From contig CAIYDT010000132.1 of assembly GCA_903924985.1 (NCBI GenBank), positions 1 to 45,116 on the forward strand: 45,116 nucleotides of DNA. Reading direction: 5' to 3'. The first letter of the stretch is position 1. Each line of letters opens with the position of its first letter. The notes beneath the pieces were generated by a model. That model did not search any database, had not been told where the DNA came from, and saw only the letters and a program-made list of their open reading frames with translations. Source of the DNA: an uncultured Acetobacteraceae bacterium (lineage in GTDB: Bacteria; Pseudomonadota; Alphaproteobacteria; Acetobacterales; Acetobacteraceae). This document shows, in pieces, positions 18,196 to 45,024 of this stretch. The translations under genes and the position numbers were made by a program.

Positions 18196-18588
18196 TCAAT
18201 GCCGGTCGCTGCGATGCGGAATAGGCGCACCGCACGCGAGGTCCAAGGCCCGATAGGTCGACTGCCAATTCCTTGCCGCGACAAGTTGGTCGCCCCTCAG
18301 GAATTGGGCGTCGATCAGATTGGCGCCCGCCAGGTCGGCGCGATCGAGGACGGCCCTGAAGAAATTGGCACCTTCGAGATCGGCACCGATCAAGAGCGCA
18401 TCGCTTAAATTCGTTCCCCGTAAGTCTGCCTTGCGGAGATTGGCGCCGACAAGGTCGGCGCCGACAAGGTCCAGACCGTACAAGTGTAGATCGGACAGCT
18501 CAGGTCGCACGTCCGCGTTCGCCGCCCGCCATGCGTTCCAGGCGTCTACGCCACTGGTCAACAACGCCAACTGTGTTTTGTCAGCCAT
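18196..18588 (-). CDS. Pentapeptide-repeat protein
   Basis: This 130-residue protein has, from about residue 30 to 98, a run of roughly thirteen A(D/N)LxX pentapeptides (for example LVGADLVGANLRKADLRG). These build a right-handed quadrilateral beta-helix. The N-terminal 28 residues (TQLALLTSGVDAWNAWRAAN) match a short leader seen in many bacterial pentapeptide proteins. No DNA-gyrase-protection role can be claimed. The ATG at 18588 has a strong GGGAGGGAAACC upstream. It lies 68 bases downstream of hyfI on the same strand and could be the last gene of the hyf transcript; the association may be accidental. It converges with the CoA-transferase gene. Confidence 0.88.
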   Translation of the reverse strand: MADKTQLALLTSGVDAWNAWRAANADVRPELSDLHLYGLDLVGADLVGANLRKADLRGTNLSDALLIGADLEGANFFRAVLDRADLAGANLIDAQFLRGDQLVAARNWQSTYRALDLACGAPIPHRSDRH

Positions 18589-18656: not shown

Positions 18657-19232
18657 TTATTCACCCGCGGCGGTCCGACGGCGGAAAAGCCTGGATGGCC
18701 ACCCATTTCCGTCACCGACCGCGTCGTCTTGAACAAGAGCCAGCAGGCCCTTTATCAGGTCTAGGGGCCTGGGTGGGCATCCTCGGATATGAAGGTCGAC
18801 TGGCACGACCGCCGATACGCCGCCAACACAGGCATAGCTGCCGGCGAACATGCCGCCATCGGCCGCGCAATCGCCAATGGCCACCACCCATTTTGGATTG
18901 GGAGTGGCCCGATAGGTGCGCTCGAGCGCTTCACGCATATTCTTGGTCACCGGGCCGGTGACCATGAGCACGTCGGCATGGCGTGGCGACGCGACGAAGT
19001 GGAAACCGAACCGTTCGATGTCGTAAAATGCATTGCCGAGGGCGTGGATTTCCAGTTCGCAGCCATTGCATGAGCCCGCATCGACCTCACGAATGGACAG
19101 GGAGCGGCCAAAGCGCTGCCGTGCCTGCCGTTTGAGCGCCGCGCCAAACTCCTCCAGCGCCGCCGGATCGGCACCCGGCGAAGGTTCGGTCAGAGGGCCG
19201 TGAACCAGACTTTCAAAAATGATCTTCCGCAT
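18657..19232 (-). CDS. hyfI: Hydrogenase-4/complex-I-like FeS subunit (HyfI/HycG, NuoB-like)
   Basis: This 191-residue small subunit carries the [4Fe-4S] cluster next to the catalytic-type subunit. All four expected ligands are present: C55 and C58 (DAGSCNGCE), C122 (GDCA) and C152 (RGCPPRP). The CxxC spacing is the hydrogenase type, not the adjacent-Cys pair of NuoB. The C-terminus is short and lacks extra FeS motifs. It starts 11 bases after hyfG on the same strand and ends the core operon. In hydrogenases this subunit passes electrons from soluble partners to the Ni-Fe site. Because HyfG here lacks that site, the cluster probably serves another redox or quinone-like reaction (inference). 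Confidence 0.92.
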   Translation of the reverse strand: MRKIIFESLVHGPLTEPSPGADPAALEEFGAALKRQARQRFGRSLSIREVDAGSCNGCELEIHALGNAFYDIERFGFHFVASPRHADVLMVTGPVTKNMREALERTYRATPNPKWVVAIGDCAADGGMFAGSYACVGGVSAVVPVDLHIRGCPPRPLDLIKGLLALVQDDAVGDGNGWPSRLFRRRTAAGE

Positions 19233-19243
19233 GCTGGTAGCCC

Positions 19244-20776
19244 CTAGAGGTCATGGCCGGAATACGAGCAATTGAACGATTTGTTGCAGAGCGGAAAGTC
19301 GGCGACGATGTTGCCTTCGACAACAGCCTCGATAAGCGGCCATTGGAACCACGACGGGTCGCGCAGATGACAGCGCTCGATCTGTCCGCCGCCGCTGACG
19401 CGCAGCCAAACCAGGATATCGCCGCGGAAGCCTTCCACGAGGGCAGCCCCCTCGCGGGCGCCACCACTGGCCGCGGCAACATCGGTGTGGATGCCACCCG
19501 ATGGTAGCAAATCCATGATCTGCTCCGCCAGCGATAAACTCTGTTCCACCTCGCGAATTCGTATCCACACGCGGGCGTTGACATCGCCGGCCTGCAGCAC
19601 GGGGACCTCAAACCGGAGCGTATCATAGGGCGGATACCCGGGGGTGCGGCGGGCATCGAAGTTCCGACCCGAGGCCCGCCCGATGGTGCCACCGCAGGCG
19701 TAGAGCCGTGCCAAATCCGGCTGCAACACGCCGGTGCCCACAGTGCGGTCTTGCAGCGAGGCGGTGTTGTCGTACAGCTCGACCAGAGCGGGAAACCGTC
19801 GCCGGATCTCGACAATAAGCGAGCGTAGCCCAGCGAGGCCTTCGCCGCCGAGATCGACGGCCACGCCGCCCGGCATAACGCAATCCCGCATCAGGCGGTG
19901 CCCAAAGCACAAATCCGCGGCACGCAGCACACGTTCGCGCAATACCCCGCAATTGGCATGCATCAGCGCGAAGGCGGCATCGTTACAAATCGCACCGATA
20001 TCGCCAAAGTGGTTCGCCAGGCGCTCGAGTTCCGCCATGAGCGCGCGCAGCCATACAGCTCGTGGTGGCACTTCGACGTCCAGAGCCGCTTCGACGGCGC
20101 GGGCGAACGCCAAACCATAGGCGACGGTGCTGTCACCCGACGTGCGTCCGGCCAGTCGCGCCGCGTGCCCGATATCCCGGCCGGCCATGAGGCCTTCGAT
20201 GCCCTTGTGGACATAGCCCAGTCGCTCCTCGAGGCGGACCACGGTCTCGCCATTGGCCGTAAAACGGAAATGGCCGGGCTCGATAATGCCCGCATGCACT
20301 GGACCGACCGCGATCTCGTGCAGGCTTTCGCCCTCGGCTGACAGGAAGGCATAAGGTGGGATCACGGGCAGGCCCTCGACCGGGCCATGCAGGCTCAGCG
20401 GATGGCGAACATCCCATCGTCCGTGATCGAGCCACGGCCGTTCGTCCGTCGATTCGGTCGGCTGCAACCCGAACAAATCCCGGATAGCTGCTTCGAGATG
20501 CAGGGCCGGGAGATGGGCTCGCGCGACCGACGGGAATGTCCCATCCGGGCAATGGAGGCTGAACACGCCGATTTCCACGAAGGACTCGTTACACAGTGCC
20601 ATATGAACGCTGCCACCGTCGCCCCAAAGACCGAGCAGCCCGCAGTGCCCCGCGGCGAGAAGCTCCACCGCGCCGCGCCACAGGTCAGGCGTTATCGCCG
20701 AACGCGGCCACGGATGGTGATGAGGGATCGCCTGTCCCTCCTTCATCAAGTCCGCGATCCCGGCGATGCTCCCCAT
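19244..20776 (-). CDS. hyfG: HyfG/HycE-like large subunit (NuoC-NuoD fusion) without the Ni-Fe cysteines
   Basis: This 510-residue protein has an N-terminal NuoC-like domain (to about 125, ending in the RDLFGLQP and DHGRWDVRHP region) fused to a NuoD/hydrogenase-large-subunit domain (about 150-510). In Ni-Fe enzymes the metal is held by an N-terminal RxCGxC and a C-terminal DPCxxC. Here the first reads RTSGDST (Ser213, Ser216 for the two Cys) and the second reads NKSFNCS (Asn498, Lys499, Ser500, Cys503). Three of four ligands are gone, along with the Asp-Pro. The rest of the subunit is full length and well conserved (RLEERLGYVHKGIE, HFGDIGAICND), so it is not a decayed gene. The TAG stop of hyfF lies 3 bases upstream. 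It fits Ehr-type complexes with no hydrogenase activity. Confidence 0.92.
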   Translation of the reverse strand: MGSIAGIADLMKEGQAIPHHHPWPRSAITPDLWRGAVELLAAGHCGLLGLWGDGGSVHMALCNESFVEIGVFSLHCPDGTFPSVARAHLPALHLEAAIRDLFGLQPTESTDERPWLDHGRWDVRHPLSLHGPVEGLPVIPPYAFLSAEGESLHEIAVGPVHAGIIEPGHFRFTANGETVVRLEERLGYVHKGIEGLMAGRDIGHAARLAGRTSGDSTVAYGLAFARAVEAALDVEVPPRAVWLRALMAELERLANHFGDIGAICNDAAFALMHANCGVLRERVLRAADLCFGHRLMRDCVMPGGVAVDLGGEGLAGLRSLIVEIRRRFPALVELYDNTASLQDRTVGTGVLQPDLARLYACGGTIGRASGRNFDARRTPGYPPYDTLRFEVPVLQAGDVNARVWIRIREVEQSLSLAEQIMDLLPSGGIHTDVAAASGGAREGAALVEGFRGDILVWLRVSGGGQIERCHLRDPSWFQWPLIEAVVEGNIVADFPLCNKSFNCSYSGHDL

Positions 20777-20779
20777 CGT

Positions 20780-22246
20780 CTACCCCAGTAGCCGAGCAAC
20801 ATGTTGAAACCAGGCCACCAGTGGCGGCGGCAGATAGAGGCCGGCGCCGAGCACGAGTGTCAGGTGCGCGTAGAGCGGTACGTAGGATGCCTCGGCAGGC
20901 TTCGTGCTACCCAACGGGTCGCCGAACGCAACGCCGTTCAGGTGCCGCATCAGGGCGCCGAAGGCCACCAGAATGCCGGCAACGAGCGGGATAGCCAACA
21001 AAGGCAGGCGCGCGAAGGTCGAACTGACGGCCAGAAATTCGCTCATAAAAATCCCGAATGGCGGCATGCCGGCGATCGCGAGTACACCGAGGACGAGGCC
21101 CCAGCCGAGCACTGGGTGGGTTTCCGTCAGCCCGCGGATATCGGCAAGCCTCTGCGTACCCTTGATCTGCGCGATATGGCCGACCGCGTAGAAAATCGCC
21201 GACTTGGTCAGGCTGTGCATGGTCATGTGCAGAAGACCGGCGAAATTGGCCAGCGGACCACCCATGCCAAACGCGAAGGTGATGATCCCCATATGCTCGA
21301 TTGAGGAATACGCGAACATGCGTTTGATGTCGCGGCGGCGGTATAACATGAAGGCGGCGAAGATCAGCGAGGTCAGCCCGATCGTCACCATGAGCGGCCC
21401 CGGCGCGATGGCCTTGGCATTGGCGACAAGCAACATCTTGAACCGCAACACGGCATAGAGCGCGACATTGAGCAGAAGTCCGGACAGCACGGCTGAAATC
21501 GGCGTCGGGCCTTCGGCGTGGGCGTCGGGAAGCCAGGCGTGCAGCGGCGCCAAACCAACCTTGGTCCCGTACCCGAGCAGAAGAAACACGAAGGCGGCAT
21601 CGAGGAGAGCCGGGTCGAAGCGCGCGACACGCTCGATGAGCAGCGTCCACACCATGGCATTGAGGCCACCGCCCATGACCGGCTGCGCCGCGAGATAGAT
21701 GAGAATGGTGCCGAACAGCGCCAGCGCGATCCCAACGCTGCCCAGGATGAAATACTTCCATGCCGCCTCGACTGCCTCATGGGTGCGATAGATGCCGACC
21801 ATGAGGATGGTGGTCAGCGTCGCCAGCTCGATCGCGACCCACATCAGCCCGATGTTGTTGGCGGTCAGCGCCAGGTTCATGGCGAACATCAGGACCTGGT
21901 ACATCGTATGATAGAAGCGCAGGTAATTCGGCGTCAGCCGGCCGATCTCCAGCTCATGCGCGATATAGGTGGCGCTGAACACGCTGGTCGTGAACCCAAC
22001 GAACGTATTCAGAACAATGAAAACGATATTGAGGTCGTCGACGAACAGATATTGGCCCGGTTCCGGCCGAACGGAGAAGAACAGCGAGAAGGAAGCCGCG
22101 AAAGTCAGCAACGCCGCCAAAACATTCAGACCCGCGCTGAGCCGATAGCTCGGCAGGAATGCCAACAGGGCAGCCGTCCCGACGGGGATCAGCAGGACTG
22201 CACGTAACGCATCGAAAGAGCCAGCGTCGAAGGGAAGCCCGCTCAT
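20780..22246 (-). CDS. hyfF: Hydrogenase-4-like membrane subunit F (NuoN/Mrp antiporter-like)
   Basis: The 488-residue, very hydrophobic protein has about fourteen membrane helices in the proton-pumping antiporter family (NuoL/M/N, MrpD). The hallmark charged residues are visible: a Glu in LMWVAIELATLTTILM (TM5-type), a Lys in AWKYFILGSVG, and the broken-helix region YGTKVGLAPLHAWLPDAHAEGP followed by KRMFAYSSIEHMGII. These form the proton half-channel. It overlaps hyfE by 4 bases (ATGA) and precedes hyfG by 3 bases, so it is tightly coupled. The intact channel residues suggest the complex still moves ions even though its Ni-Fe centre is missing. Confidence 0.92.
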   Translation of the reverse strand: MSGLPFDAGSFDALRAVLLIPVGTAALLAFLPSYRLSAGLNVLAALLTFAASFSLFFSVRPEPGQYLFVDDLNIVFIVLNTFVGFTTSVFSATYIAHELEIGRLTPNYLRFYHTMYQVLMFAMNLALTANNIGLMWVAIELATLTTILMVGIYRTHEAVEAAWKYFILGSVGIALALFGTILIYLAAQPVMGGGLNAMVWTLLIERVARFDPALLDAAFVFLLLGYGTKVGLAPLHAWLPDAHAEGPTPISAVLSGLLLNVALYAVLRFKMLLVANAKAIAPGPLMVTIGLTSLIFAAFMLYRRRDIKRMFAYSSIEHMGIITFAFGMGGPLANFAGLLHMTMHSLTKSAIFYAVGHIAQIKGTQRLADIRGLTETHPVLGWGLVLGVLAIAGMPPFGIFMSEFLAVSSTFARLPLLAIPLVAGILVAFGALMRHLNGVAFGDPLGSTKPAEASYVPLYAHLTLVLGAGLYLPPPLVAWFQHVARLLG

Positions 22247-22905
22247 TGCTGCTCTCCCCGGAACCGGTCGAGCGCCTTGACATCGACGGTATCAAAACGC
22301 TCGCGTATCCGAAACAGGAAGATGCCGATGATGATGAAGGCGATGAGAACGGAGAATGCGACGCTCATCTCGACGACGAGAGGCATCCCCTTGGCACCTG
22401 TTGCCGCCAGGATCAGCCCATTTTCCAACGACATAAAGCCGACCACCTGGCTCACGGCGTTGCGCCTGGTTACCATCATAAGGAGCCCGAGAAGAACGAC
22501 GGAAAGCGCCAGCGCCACATCCTCGCGCGCCAGACGGTCGGCTTCCGCGGTAACGCGCAGCATAACCGCCATGGACAACGCGACGAGTCCGATGCCGAAG
22601 AGCATGGTGGGCCCGATACCGACGACGGTCTCGATCTCGCGGTGAATGCCGAGGCGCTCGATGATGCGATGGAGCGAAACCGGGATGATGATGCCCTTGA
22701 AGACAATCGCGATCGCGGCGGTGATATAAAGGTGCGGCGCGTCCTGGATATAGGCCTGCCAGCCGACTGAAAAGGCCAGAACGATCGCGTGGAGCGCGAA
22801 GATATTGAGCATCGCGTAGAGACGGTCCTGATAGATCATCATGAAGCTCACCAGCACGAGACCGCCGGCGAGGAGATGCGCGATGTCGAAGTCGAGGCCG
22901 CTCAT
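22243..22905 (-). CDS. hyfE: Hydrogenase-4-like membrane subunit E (NuoK-related)
   Basis: The 220-residue membrane protein has about six or seven helices, matching the hydrogenase-4 component E length. The second half has NuoK/MrpC-like sequence around FMSLENGLILAATGAKGMP, with a membrane Glu likely in the proton path. The start at 22905 directly abuts the hyfC stop codon, and the end overlaps hyfF by 4 bases. The gene order B-C-E-F-G-I lacks hyfD, as in shorter Hyf/Ehr operons. The product acts in the inner membrane between the HyfC-like and antiporter-like subunits. Confidence 0.9.
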   Translation of the reverse strand: MSGLDFDIAHLLAGGLVLVSFMMIYQDRLYAMLNIFALHAIVLAFSVGWQAYIQDAPHLYITAAIAIVFKGIIIPVSLHRIIERLGIHREIETVVGIGPTMLFGIGLVALSMAVMLRVTAEADRLAREDVALALSVVLLGLLMMVTRRNAVSQVVGFMSLENGLILAATGAKGMPLVVEMSVAFSVLIAFIIIGIFLFRIRERFDTVDVKALDRFRGEQQ

Positions 22906-23856
22906 TTACAGTCCCCGCGAAACGAACAAGAGGAGCGTGCCGAGGAGGCCGAGCATCAACGCGGCACCGAGGAACACGGGCACCCGGAAAACCCGCATTT
23001 TGGCGATCAGGGTCTCGGACAGGGCAAGCAGAACACCACCTGCGGCGAGTTTCGCGACATAAGCGACTCCGGCGATGGAATAGGCCTCGGGACCGGCATT
23101 GGCTTGCGCCAATCCCCAGGGCACAAAGATGCAGATGATCAGCGAGACGTACAATAGAAGCTGCAGCGACGCCGCCAGCTCGATCACCGCCAGATGGCGC
23201 CCGGAGTACTCGAGGATCATGGCTTCGTGGACCATCGTCAATTCCAGGTGCGTCGCCGGGTTATCGACCGGGATGCGAGCATTCTCGGCGAGCGCGACAA
23301 TGACCAAGCCAACCAGCACCATCCCCAGCGAGATGCGCAACCCCACATGCGCGGAAAGCATGACGTTGGAAATGGTGGAGAGCTGAGTCGATCGGGCGAT
23401 CAGAGCCAAGGTGAACACAATCATCAGCATCGCCGGTTCGGCCAGGGATGCGATCATCATCTCGCGACTGGAGCCGATACCGCCGAAGCTGGTGCCTACG
23501 TCCATGCCGGCAAGTGCCAGGAAGAAGCGCACGCTGCCGAGCAGGGCCGTGATGGCGATGAGATCCGCAGCCCCGCTGAACAACAGGCCGGTGGCAACGG
23601 TCGGCACCATGGCAGCCGCCACCCACGTCGCGGCGAAAATCAGGTACGGGGCGACACGAAACAGCCAGGAGGCGTTATCTGCGAGTACGACCTCCTTTCT
23701 GAGCAAACGCCGGAGATCTCGATACGGTTGAATGATGGGCGGACCTTGGCGCCGGAGCAACCGCGCCTTGATCTTGCGCACGAAGCCTGTGAGCAGGGGT
23801 GCAAGTAGCAGAACCAGGAACATCTGGCCCCCCTGGATGGCGAGATCGAGAATCAT
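22906..23856 (-). CDS. hyfC: Hydrogenase-4-like membrane subunit C (HycD/NuoH-like)
   Basis: The 316-residue protein has about eight membrane helices and belongs to the NuoH/HycD family. This subunit joins the redox arm to the membrane arm. The conserved cytoplasmic loops are present: the N-terminal KARLLRRQGPPIIQPYRDL and ALAENARIPVDNPATHLEL followed by MVHEAMILEYSGR, with the acidic residues that line the quinone-like cavity in complex I. The start is the ATG at 23856, overlapping the hyfB stop (ATGA); the longer open frame to 24180 lies inside hyfB and is not coding. Retention of these loops suggests a live redox-to-ion coupling path. Confidence 0.93.
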   Translation of the reverse strand: MILDLAIQGGQMFLVLLLAPLLTGFVRKIKARLLRRQGPPIIQPYRDLRRLLRKEVVLADNASWLFRVAPYLIFAATWVAAAMVPTVATGLLFSGAADLIAITALLGSVRFFLALAGMDVGTSFGGIGSSREMMIASLAEPAMLMIVFTLALIARSTQLSTISNVMLSAHVGLRISLGMVLVGLVIVALAENARIPVDNPATHLELTMVHEAMILEYSGRHLAVIELAASLQLLLYVSLIICIFVPWGLAQANAGPEAYSIAGVAYVAKLAAGGVLLALSETLIAKMRVFRVPVFLGAALMLGLLGTLLLFVSRGL

Positions 23857-25862
23857 AGCCACATCACGAGTATCAGGAGCAGAACGATGAGAGCCGCGAA
23901 CACGAGGCTCAGATAGCGCCGGATGGTTTGGAACTGGAGCACGTTGAGGCGACCGGCCACCGCATCGACGGCGCGGGCCACTGGCGCATACAGCATTTCC
24001 CATATCAGATCGCGGATATCCACATGCAGGAGTGCCGGGCGCGGATCGCCGGGAGGCGCCATGCGCACGTGCTCTCGTGCACGGAAAACGCTCGTTCCGA
24101 ATACGCGCCGAATGGGCTGAGCAAAACTCCCCGCCGTGTACTGGGTAATGGGGCTTGCGTTGGGATAACCGCAATCCCACGGCGGCGCACGCCGCAATGC
24201 ATGGGATGCCAAACGATGGATCGCATAGCTGGCGAGCGAGGCGGAGACCGCGATGAAAAGGAAAATGAGCAGCCCGTTATAGGAACTCCGGCCTTCGGCG
24301 ATCGGCACGATAGACAGCCACGGGACCCCAAGCTGGACCGGCATGCGGTCGCCAACCAGCCCGCTGACGACCGGCGTCAAACTATCGATGACAAAGCCCG
24401 GCAGAACGCCCGCCAGCAGGCAAAGCCCAGCCAGGGCAAACATCGCGACGACCGAAAACCGGTCGACCTCGTGCGCGTTCACGGCGGCCGATGTGCGCGG
24501 CCGGCCGAGAAAGGTGACACCGAATGCCTTGACGAAGCAGGCTGCCGCGAGAGCCGCCGACAGCGCCAAAAGGCCGCCAGCTGCTGGAATGAAAACCTTG
24601 AGGCCCCATTGAGGCAAATCGGGACTCTGCAAAATGGCCTGAAAAGTCAACCATTCCGAGACAAACCCGTTGAGCGGCGGAAGCGCCGAGATCGCGACGC
24701 AACCAACAAGAAACGTAAAGGCCGTCAACGGCATCTGGTGGATAAGGCCGCCCAAATGCTCCATATCGCGCTCGCCCGTCGCCGTCAGCACCGCTCCCGA
24801 ACCGAAGAACAGAAGGCTCTTGAAGAGCGAGTGGTTAAAGACATGGAAGAGCGCCGCGGTAAGGGCGAGCGCCGCGGCCCAGGTGACATGGTTCGCCTGG
24901 AAAGCCAGCGCCAGACCGAGTCCGATGTAGATGATGCCGATGTTCTCGACCGTATGATAGGCAAGCAGCCGCTTGAGATCGTGCTGCATGAGCGCATAGA
25001 GAACGCCGAGCGCGGCGCTGACGCCACCGAGAGCGAGCACCACCATGGACCACCACCACTCCGGCGGTCCAAGAAGGTCCAGGACGATGCGGATAAAGCC
25101 GTAAACTGCGACCTTCGTCATGACGCCGCTCATCAACGCCGACACATGACTCGGCGCGGCCGGGTGAGCAAGCGGCAGCCACACATGAAGCGGCACGAGG
25201 CCGGCCTTCGAGCCGGCACCGAGCAGAACGAGCGCCAGCACCAGCGCCGACAACACAGGCCCCAGGCGGTTTGTTCGCATTGCCTCGAAACCGTACGCAC
25301 CATCGGGACCGGCCAGCAGCGCAAATGCAAGTAGCAGGCAAAGCGTGCCAAAACTCGCCATGATGATATAGATGTAGCCGGCTCGTACGTTCTCGCTAAT
25401 ACGATGATGGGCCATCACCAGCCCCCACGACGTAAGCGACATGAACTCCCAGGACAGAAGAAAAGTGAACGCATCGTCCGCCAGAACCACGAGATTCATG
25501 CCGGCCAGGAACGCTGGGAAGAGCGGCAATACCCGGTGGGGTGCCGACTCGTGGCGGCCATATCCGATCCCGTAGAGGCTCGCCGCGGCGCTTCCGAGAT
25601 TGACCACGATCAGAAAGAACGCGGCGAGTGGGTCGATACGGAAATGGGCGCCAAGCCAAGGGAGCCCAAACGGCAAAACGGCCGTGGCCGGCTCCGCACC
25701 ACCAAGGAGGCCATCCAGGGCGCCACCCAATGACACTAGCGAGACGGCAAGGCAGGCTCCATAGACGATCGGAGTGGCGACGAACCGCCGGGCGGTCGCG
25801 ATAGCCAAGGCGGACGTTGCAAGCAACGCCGCGGTGCACAACAGGGCGAGCGTGGCCAGCAT
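23853..25862 (-). CDS. hyfB: Hydrogenase-4-like membrane subunit B (NuoL/antiporter-like)
   Basis: This 669-residue protein has about sixteen membrane helices and is the largest pump-like subunit. The proton-channel residues are visible: Glu139 in LLSWEFMSLTSW, Lys219 in GAGSKAGLVPLHVWLP, Lys250 in SGVMTKVAVYG, and HDLKRLLAYHTVENIGII. The C-terminal extension carries PPWDCGYPNASPITQYTAGSF, typical of HyfB/HycC. The ATG at 25862 lies 6 bases after the stop of a small ORF and has no clear ribosome binding site of its own, so translation is probably coupled to that ORF. It leads the run of six hyf-like genes. Confidence 0.93.
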   Translation of the reverse strand: MLATLALLCTAALLATSALAIATARRFVATPIVYGACLAVSLVSLGGALDGLLGGAEPATAVLPFGLPWLGAHFRIDPLAAFFLIVVNLGSAAASLYGIGYGRHESAPHRVLPLFPAFLAGMNLVVLADDAFTFLLSWEFMSLTSWGLVMAHHRISENVRAGYIYIIMASFGTLCLLLAFALLAGPDGAYGFEAMRTNRLGPVLSALVLALVLLGAGSKAGLVPLHVWLPLAHPAAPSHVSALMSGVMTKVAVYGFIRIVLDLLGPPEWWWSMVVLALGGVSAALGVLYALMQHDLKRLLAYHTVENIGIIYIGLGLALAFQANHVTWAAALALTAALFHVFNHSLFKSLLFFGSGAVLTATGERDMEHLGGLIHQMPLTAFTFLVGCVAISALPPLNGFVSEWLTFQAILQSPDLPQWGLKVFIPAAGGLLALSAALAAACFVKAFGVTFLGRPRTSAAVNAHEVDRFSVVAMFALAGLCLLAGVLPGFVIDSLTPVVSGLVGDRMPVQLGVPWLSIVPIAEGRSSYNGLLIFLFIAVSASLASYAIHRLASHALRRAPPWDCGYPNASPITQYTAGSFAQPIRRVFGTSVFRAREHVRMAPPGDPRPALLHVDIRDLIWEMLYAPVARAVDAVAGRLNVLQFQTIRRYLSLVFAALIVLLLILVMWL

Positions 25863-25868
25863 ATTCGT

Positions 25869-26069
25869 TTATTGTCGTAGCGCGCGGAGCGAAAAGACCT
25901 CCGGCAGGTATTGCAAACGGGCATCGACATCGACCCGTGTCCCGCCCGGCTGGTCGCGGCCAATGCGGGGGCCGGCGTCCACAACAACAAGGCCCGCCGA
26001 GGGTTTTGAACGCCTGTGTTTGGCGAAGGGTTCCCAGCCACGCCAGCCGTCGTCACCGATTGCGCCCAC
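25869..26069 (-). CDS. Small hypothetical protein at the head of the hyf-like operon
   Basis: A 66-residue frame starts with GTG at 26069, behind an excellent AGGAGGG sequence about 5 bases upstream, and stops 6 bases before hyfB. The product is soluble and polar (GAIGDDGWRGWEPFAKHRR at the start, then LVVVDAGPRIGRDQPGG), with no Cys and no membrane segment. I recognise no family. The ribosome binding site and the near-contiguous placement, with hyfB lacking its own site, argue that it is translated and couples to hyfB. It may be a regulatory or assembly peptide, or only a leader. Bases 26070-26146 before it probably hold the operon promoter. Confidence 0.55.
   Translation of the reverse strand: MGAIGDDGWRGWEPFAKHRRSKPSAGLVVVDAGPRIGRDQPGGTRVDVDARLQYLPEVFSLRALRQ

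Positions 26070-42240: not shown

Positions 42241-45024
<2,784 letters not shown>

Follow-up and report, generated by a model that had tools for sequence, protein, structure and literature searches.

The window analyzed here is 45,116 nucleotides of contig CAIYDT010000132.1 (assembly GCA_903924985.1) from an uncultured Acetobacteraceae bacterium, and it carries a six-gene operon, hyfB-C-E-F-G-I. This operon almost certainly encodes the Hyq complex, which is of the "energy-converting hydrogenase related" (Ehr) type, has six subunits, is free of Ni-Fe and is related to respiratory complex I. We found that the large subunit, HyfG, has lost every Ni-Fe ligand, and that the pump residues and the single [4Fe-4S] site of the complex are conserved among its relatives. 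We tentatively propose that Hyq reversibly transfers electrons between ferredoxin (or flavodoxin) and quinone while pumping protons, and that the [4Fe-4S] cluster of HyfI is where electrons enter. New here are a survey of nifD and HypD in genomes encoding HyqG and the description of a reduced genome, G227, that carries Hyq. The six genes all lie on the minus strand and run from 25862 to 18657 of the window:

23853..25862, minus strand: hyfB/hyqB, antiporter-like pump subunit, 669 amino acids; NCBIfam hydrogenase 4 subunit B, 889 bits (cut-off 667), and Proton_antipo_M
22906..23856, minus strand: hyfC/hyqC, NuoH-like anchor, 316 amino acids; Pfam NADHdh, 3.6e-35
22243..22905, minus strand: hyfE/hyqE, NuoK-like membrane subunit, 220 amino acids; hydrogenase 4 membrane subunit, 84.8 bits (cut-off 136), and Oxidored_q2, also under its cut-off
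20780..22246, minus strand: hyfF/hyqF, second antiporter-like pump subunit, 488 amino acids; NCBIfam hydrogenase 4 subunit F, 877 bits (cut-off 533), and Proton_antipo_M
19244..20776, minus strand: hyfG/hyqG, fused NuoC/NuoD-type large subunit without Ni-Fe cysteines, 510 amino acids; Complex1_49kDa, and NiFeSe_Hases at 28.2 bits (cut-off 25.8)
20129..20140, minus strand: codons of S213-G214-D215-S216 in hyfG (CGIC in HycE), counted from the gene start at 20776
19247..19276, minus strand: codons of residues 501-510 of hyfG, C-terminus FNCSYSGHDL (LDPCYSCTDR in HycE), counted from the gene start at 20776
18657..19232, minus strand: hyfI/hyqI, NuoB-like subunit with one [4Fe-4S] site and a hydrogenase-type CxxC, 191 amino acids; Pfam Oxidored_q6, 3e-34

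The hyfB/hyfC and hyfE/hyfF pairs overlap by 4 nucleotides, hyfC and hyfE abut, and spacers of 3 and 11 nucleotides precede hyfG and hyfI, respectively. Pfam and NCBIfam were concordant for all six products, with HyfE below the curated cut-offs in both. A preliminary description of this DNA, made from the letters alone, had recognized six co-directional, overlapping or near-abutting genes for a membrane arm and a peripheral arm, and the gene calls and both family databases bear this out. Its locus limit of 26069 was too wide, as the operon starts at 25862 and the frame reaching 26069 is a short open reading frame with no resemblance to the regulator seen upstream in relatives. Within the operon there is no counterpart of HyfA, HyfD, HyfH, HyfJ, NuoI or NuoE/F/G. 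Given two antiporter-like subunits and no HyfD, HyfH, HyfA or NuoI, one cluster makes up the entire electron path that the operon encodes, which raises the question of what so small a complex I, its hydrogenase pocket emptied, may do.

The HyfG pocket, the HyfI cluster and the membrane arm

When HyfG was aligned to HycE with both HMMER and MAFFT, the HycE ligands C241, C244, C531 and C534 fell opposite S213, S216, S504 and G507, such that none of the four is kept. Both regions align without gaps, RVCGIC of HycE with RTSGDS of HyfG and SLDPCYSCTDR with SFNCSYSGHDL. The preliminary description had counted three missing ligands, seemingly crediting C503 as the fourth. This residue lies opposite HycE Pro530, which is no ligand position, and other residues take its place in 4 of the 77 close rows and in 8 of the 18 wider ones; a loss of four out of four strengthens the earlier observation. 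The pocket is nearly constant in the close rows (S213 in 76/77, G214 and D215 in 77/77, S216 in 72/77), and a serine at position 213 in 76 of 77 rows rules out the possibility, raised earlier, that the Ser codons are sequencing errors. The one exception at S213, locus L069 (L069:2009-3538, TCGDS), has a cysteine there and none at the other three ligand positions. R211, D215, R294, R451, S500, G507 and D509 are identical in 95 of 95 rows. E166, which corresponds to HycE E193 and MbhL E21, is Glu in 94 of these and Asp in one. The three cysteines regarded as typical of the family are found in 13 (C264), 10 (C497) and 10 (C503) of the 18 rows of the wider set. Judged from these alignments, the conservation of the HyfG pocket is not that of random decay.

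HyfG is intact and full length, and a comparison with the relative L046 gave 0.18 nonsynonymous (dN) and 1.11 synonymous (dS) substitutions per site, which indicates purifying selection and agrees with the earlier impression that the genes are selected. Its stop falls at the position of HycE R537, the site of the maturation-protease cut; since NuoD and the Ech-like L140 stop at the same position, the HyfG end alone proves nothing. At the canopy position, HycE Asp529 is replaced by Asn502. The solved structure closest to HyfG was HycE (7z0s_E), both by sequence (2.3e-52) and by Foldseek (template modelling score 0.85, by query length). A structure model of HyfG had a predicted local distance difference test score (pLDDT) of 82 and a predicted template modelling score of 0.87 overall, with residues 142-190 and 487-510, which make up the pocket, below 50 pLDDT; therefore, no structural claim is drawn from it. 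Taken at the level of sequence, Hyq appears very unlikely to be a Ni-Fe enzyme.

Residue counts for the other subunits include the window and exclude the divergent loci L025 and L040-L043. All four HyfI cluster cysteines (C55, C58, C122 and C152) are present in 90 of 90 rows, as the preliminary description had it for the window, and the CxxC loop is of the same length as in HycG. The same description held the proton-channel Glu and Lys residues to be intact. This stands for HyfB (E139, K219, K250 and E403, each in 77/77), for HyfF (E140 and K229 in 89/89, E403 in 88/89) and for HyfC (E140 in 83/83, D198 in 81/83, E205 and E216 in 82/83). It does not stand at two positions: that of NuoH E216 is Ala in the window HyfC (Ala in 69/83), and that of NuoM K265 in HyfF is Asn in 89/89 rows and likewise in E. 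coli HyfF. In HyfE, E161 (83/85) and E179 (84/85) are both also present in E. coli HyfE and are shifted relative to NuoK E36/E72 in the alignment. A loss of the NuoK glutamates from HyfE was considered and rejected, because the pairwise alignment places the conserved Glu a few residues off.

Three pocket types have been described in related complexes (PMC7684303, PMC9474812): complex I has no Ni-Fe cysteines, a quinone-binding His and Tyr, and adjacent small-subunit cysteines; MBH and formate hydrogenlyase have four cysteines, the glutamate and a CxxC; and the sulfane-sulfur reductase MBS has neither the quinone residues nor the glutamate. As far as alignment can tell, the window pocket, with no Ni-Fe cysteines, no quinone His/Tyr, the glutamate and a four-Cys CxxC site, matches none of them. 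The complex shares with respiratory complex I the absence of Ni-Fe cysteines and the NuoB-C-D-H core architecture, and differs in having no NuoE/F/G/I in the operon, no quinone His/Tyr, a CxxC small subunit and a separate clade in the tree below. Its hydrogenase-type CxxC in HyfI and its E193 counterpart are as in E. coli formate hydrogenlyase and hydrogenase-4 (HycE, HyfG; 7z0s), from which it is set apart by the missing HyfA/D/H/J, the four lost cysteines and the Asp529 to Asn502 exchange. Unlike the [NiFe] hydrogenases of group 4, it has neither CxxC pair, and HypD was not found in its genome. MBS/Mbx likewise lost Ni-Fe and has no quinone His/Tyr, but the window has a four-Cys cluster site and MBS has further antiporter subunits. 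The complex resembles Ehr in the group-4-related large subunit without Ni-Fe ligands and the antiporter-like membrane subunits (PMC6349859, PMC10284858). Unlike Ehr as these papers describe it, with candidate formate dehydrogenase partners or a place near group 4f, no formate dehydrogenase was found among the scanned window genes.

Relatives, distribution and a reduced genome

A scan of GTDB species genomes returned at least 574 stretches encoding relatives, and so the operon is not a product of chance. Of these loci 80 were taken further, giving a set of 101 with the window and 20 loci from one other search. The 80 are mostly alphaproteobacterial by title, with a few titled Beta- or Gammaproteobacteria or Terriglobia, and the relatives include Mesorhizobium, Bradyrhizobium, Rhizobium johnstonii 3841 plasmid pRL11, Rhodopseudomonas and Azospirillum. 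When genes were compared as clusters, B-C-E-F-G-I stood complete and contiguous in 73 of the 101 loci. Many of the remaining 28 are contig-end cuts or missed gene calls; the real exceptions are L025 and L040-L043, which have divergent membrane subunits (with hyfB last in L043), and L035. The HyfI frame of L043 begins with a NuoI-like ferredoxin part. A small XRE-type gene is found in 38 of 101 loci, ahead of the operon in many, so this regulator is not constant among relatives. Every other non-operon gene recurs in at most 16 loci, which suggests that no dedicated partner is encoded nearby and makes a general soluble donor plausible. A luciferase-like monooxygenase, tried as a partner, was rejected: it occurs in 7 loci (L028 and L070 are probably one contig), and the listed identities of just 26–34% mark the recurrence as chance in a large family.

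In an IQ-TREE tree of 54 rows, of which three are Ni-Fe rows and none a published Ehr reference, the Hyq-like rows are split from NuoD, HycE, HyfG and an Ech-like row with support of 100/100. The window copy groups with those of Rhizobium, Mesorhizobium, Bradyrhizobium, Rhodopseudomonas and one Rhodospirillaceae (96/87). L141 and L043, which are from the same genus and are also without Ni-Fe cysteines, have long branches and group with the NuoD and Ni-Fe rows, a placement that is unsure; if it is right, Ni-Fe may have been lost in more than one lineage. With the lost ligands, this tree makes the preliminary description right in kind when it proposed an Ehr-type complex. It had missed the named Hyq operon, for which deletion mutants and measured H2 phenotypes exist in Azorhizobium, so the function is not uncharted. 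In plasmid records, the large subunit of Hyq goes under the names nickel-dependent hydrogenase, NADH-quinone oxidoreductase subunit C or HypE. One published line of work also takes the complex for a hydrogenase, and the sequence speaks against a Ni-Fe enzyme.

The operon hyqRBCEFGI of Azorhizobium caulinodans was published in 2009 as an "endo-hydrogenase" and placed under NifA control (PMC2650096). In 2012 the same laboratory reported that HyqG of eight genera has no CxxC motifs and called its Ni-Fe site "uncertain, if not unlikely" (PMC3357923); the loss of the cysteines had thus been published before. That paper names orthologues in R. leguminosarum, Bradyrhizobium, Rhodopseudomonas and Azospirillum, whose genera are also represented in our set of loci, and lists three kept cysteines at 258, 491 and 497 of 504 residues, which correspond to window C264, C497 and C503 at a constant offset of 6. 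Deletion of hyq lengthened the doubling time on N2 from 7.2 to 8.8 h and altered H2 fluxes in vivo (PMC2650096, PMC2930871, PMC3357923). We compared the window with the published description of the Azorhizobium operon. The same six genes stand in the same order on one strand, and HyfG is a fused NuoC/NuoD protein (510 versus ~ 504 residues) with no CxxC and the three family cysteines. HyfI has cysteines at 55, 58 and 152 as in HyqI, and the remaining one, C122 in the window, appears as Cys 112 in the paper. Unlike in Azorhizobium, no hyqR-like frame was found upstream of hyfB in the window, no NifA or sigma-54 site was found in the 638 upstream bases by a search without a positive control, and neither nifD nor HypD was found in the genome. 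Among 63 named loci, a sigma-54-like site occurs in none and TGT-N10-ACA in four, Azorhizobium lying outside that set and thus providing no positive control. We regard NifA control and the link to nitrogen fixation as characteristic of diazotrophs, Azorhizobium among them, rather than of the Hyq family.

The distribution of nifD (TIGR01282) and HypD (PF01924) was surveyed in two samples, which share some genomes, include the window's own genome and count HyqG alone rather than the whole operon. One comprised 98 genomes of relatives (HyqG best E < 1e-100) and the other an even draw of 289 genomes across the class (HyqG at E < 1e-60). HyqG was found in 42 of the 98; 35 of these had no nifD, 30 no HypD and 29 neither. 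All seven nifD genomes (six over the cut-off, one partial) and 12 of the 14 genomes with HypD over the cut-off were within the 42. Restricting the HyqG genomes to those with a completeness of 95% or more and a contamination of 5% or less (n = 26) left 22 without nifD, 19 without HypD and 19 without both. Class-wide, 24 of 289 genomes had HyqG, with nifD in 3 of these, HypD in 5 and neither in 19, and 5 of 8 nifD genomes had no HyqG. Hyq is thus not specific to nitrogen fixers, where a 2010 paper had described hyq as generally absent from non-diazotrophs (PMC2930871), and with most sampled HyqG genomes lacking nifD and HypD, nitrogenase-linked H2 recycling cannot be its general role.

G227 is an alphaproteobacterial genome listed at 0.9 Mb and 100% complete (L161-L231; 954,167 bases including overlaps, 33.3% GC), in which Hyq has been kept while the complex I genes are broken; it is in this sense a natural experiment. 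The genes hyqB and the start of hyqC lie at one contig end, and the remaining hyqC, hyqE, hyqF, hyqG and hyqI at another. All frames are open save the cut hyqC, and HyqG, which is the only Complex1_49kDa match in the genome, ends SFNCSYSGVDL. The hyqB contig also has pieces of nuoB, nuoC and nuoD with many stops (L165:6331-5151); NuoE to NuoK had no match in G227, and matches to NuoL, M and N land on hyqB and hyqF. Present are fixA-B-C-X in order and a YfhL-type 2[4Fe-4S] ferredoxin (family matches under curated cut-offs), frdCAB (frdA and frdB over the cut-off), glpC over its cut-off, and matches to AtpA, AtpD and UbiE. With E. coli and G100 queries, no match was found in G227 to CyoABC, CydAB or Ndh, a search by which a cbb3 oxidase could be missed, or to UbiB, SucA, SucB, AceE, AceF, Lpd, YdbK, AckA or RsxB/C/D; nifD and HypD had no match either. 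G227 may come from an anaerobe that is bound to a host and whose sole pump of the complex I kind is Hyq. FixABCX bifurcates electrons. Gene content would allow a chain in which NADH passes electrons through FixABCX to ferredoxin and quinol, ferredoxin passes them through Hyq to quinone, and quinol passes them to fumarate, and the genome offers a natural test case for what Hyq does.

Possible function of the complex

In the mechanism that we tentatively favor, a soluble carrier of low potential, with ferredoxin and flavodoxin the likeliest candidates, would dock straight on HyfI, since no subunit for electron entry of the HyfH/NuoI or HyfA kind is encoded in the operon, and would reduce its single [4Fe-4S] cluster. 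The cluster would hand the electrons to a putative quinone acceptor in a HyfG-HyfI-HyfC chamber, and this redox step would drive ions, presumably protons, along the glutamates of HyfC and HyfE and through the two pumps, HyfF and HyfB. The reaction is predicted to be reversible: quinol and the membrane potential could yield reduced ferredoxin. In diazotrophs, Hyq would then be tied to the nitrogenase ferredoxin pool and could shift H2 fluxes indirectly. In favor of this mechanism count the lost Ni-Fe ligands and the many HyqG genomes without HypD, the conserved membrane machinery, the intact HyfI site, the want of a recurrent partner gene, the gene content of G227 and, in Azorhizobium, the NifA control of hyq and the slower growth of its deletion mutant on N2. 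What Hyq does bears on the origin of complex I from hydrogenases and on how alphaproteobacteria, rhizobia included, balance their ferredoxin and quinone pools.

Several observations weigh against this proposal. Its ferredoxin and quinone interactions are the predicted part of the mechanism, and the residues that hold the quinone head in complex I are missing, with I165/E166 in the Nqo4 H38 region and G214 at the Y87 position. At L035 (8938-10979, genome G043), hyfG-hyfI stand without hyfB/C/E/F across a 19.5-kb stretch of a 1.45-Mb contig, so that in one genome HyfG-HyfI may act apart from the pump. FixABCX beside Hyq was observed in one genome, G227, where no match was found to UbiB, Lpd, AceF, YdbK or RsxC that would point to its quinone or its source of reduced carriers. 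HyqG is positively associated with HypD (12/42 vs 2/56, p = 0.0007 among the relatives; 5/24 vs 14/265, p = 0.014 class-wide) and with nifD (p = 0.002 in the 98 genomes and 0.02 class-wide), all with kinship ignored; these associations fit use in diazotrophs and H2 users, not exclusive use. Finally, the Azorhizobium authors interpret their H2 data as direct H2 turnover, and at 20 µM O2 their hyq mutant evolves ~ 15 times the H2 of its parent (PMC2650096, PMC2930871, PMC3357923), which is not easily derived from ferredoxin:quinone chemistry. These hyq-dependent fluxes remain an unexplained counter-observation.

The alternative that takes the fluxes at face value is the H2:quinone oxidoreductase proposed by the discoverers, which in a complex with no Ni-Fe centre would need its H2 chemistry at another site. 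Besides the 15-fold effect, it can draw on the drop in H2 at < 1 µM O2 from 61,000 pmol per 1e9 cells per min in a hupSL mutant to 14,000 in the hupSL hyq double mutant (PMC2650096, PMC2930871, PMC3357923), on strains minus the whole hup/hyp operon that were reported still to recycle H2 (PMC2930871), on the retention of E166, whose HycE counterpart E193 is a proposed proton donor, and on HypD being commoner in HyqG genomes than in others. We nevertheless consider it improbable: the Ni-Fe ligands are gone, nifD and HypD are both missing from 29 of the 42 and 19 of the 24 HyqG genomes, and the authors themselves name a further, unidentified H2 source and doubt the Ni-Fe site (PMC3357923). The Azorhizobium authors had no cell-free assay of H2 uptake, and for this reason, together with the many HyqG genomes without nifD and HypD, we do not take the published fluxes as decisive. 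They are the kind of result, measurable H2 activity dependent on the operon, that the preliminary description itself counted against its reading. That Hyq turns over H2 without Ni-Fe by a new kind of hydrogenase chemistry, located at the HyfI cluster and the S213/D215/S216/E166 pocket or close by, strikes us as a long shot; if true, G227 would also have a proton pump that runs on H2 or ferredoxin and feeds the reduction of fumarate. On the whole, a hydrogenase without Ni-Fe is unlikely.

A better candidate, if still a rather doubtful one, is an MBS-like enzyme that would pump ions and whose proximal cluster would directly reduce a substrate other than quinone, either small or hydrophobic. MBS shows that Ni-Fe loss can redirect the pocket to another substrate and is also without the quinone His and Tyr. 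In HyfG, the aspartate D215 is new and invariant (95/95 rows), and the pocket is rich in Ser. MBS, however, has two of the four Ni-Fe cysteines, a proximal cluster with three cysteines on a shortened loop, and MbsN with two further clusters (PMC7684303, 6u8y), whereas HyfI has four cysteines on a loop as long as that of HycG, the glutamate equivalent to E21 is absent from MBS and kept in HyfG, and the Hyq operon has no MbsN-like gene. An ion transporter that is no redox enzyme, with the HyfI cluster sensing redox state, would account for the single cluster site, the absence of a donor module or recurrent partner gene, and the intact pump residues. The old active-site pocket is kept (R211, D215, R451 and D509 in 95/95), which fits substrate handling better, and the L035 pair does not suit a pure transporter, so we give this little credence, about as little as the discoverers' proposal. 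That Hyq is a functionless, decaying remnant of a hydrogenase, as the loss of the active-site ligands might suggest, is already disfavored and barely credible with full-length open genes, dN well below dS, a growth phenotype in Azorhizobium and retention of Hyq in the 0.9-Mb G227 despite complex I decay.

The source genome and neighboring genes

The assembly to which the window belongs is 5.59 Mb in 285 contigs, 98.7% complete with 7.5% contamination. It holds three Hyq-type operons of two classes: that of the window, one on contig C160 (L024) and one on contig C89 (L025). The second copy pairs with a congener in the tree (100/99), and the third is more divergent; its HyfG ends SGMDL with part of the middle missing, and its HyfE and HyfF are apparently shorter. 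Searches of this genome found no HypD (PF01924), nifD (TIGR01282), NuoA or NuoD, and the sole NuoF-like match is FdsB-like, from an FdsGBA formate dehydrogenase. Because NuoA is present in 21 of the 23 same-genus genomes searched, an assembly gap is likelier than a true loss of complex I. The FdsGBA set, with FdhD, was rejected as a partner of the operon, since it sits on a different contig.

Two further genes of the window were noted. One follows hyfI directly:

18196..18588, minus strand: pentapeptide-repeat gene directly 3' of hyfI, operon membership unproven; Pfam Pentapeptide

A pentapeptide-repeat gene also follows hyfI in the relative L046, with 64% identity. The other, at 42241-45024, is a class I tRNA synthetase gene, of isoleucyl type by its zinc finger. 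It favors placing the window contig in the same family as genome G043, being 67% identical to one that lies ~ 4 kb from the hyfG-hyfI pair of L035 in that genome.

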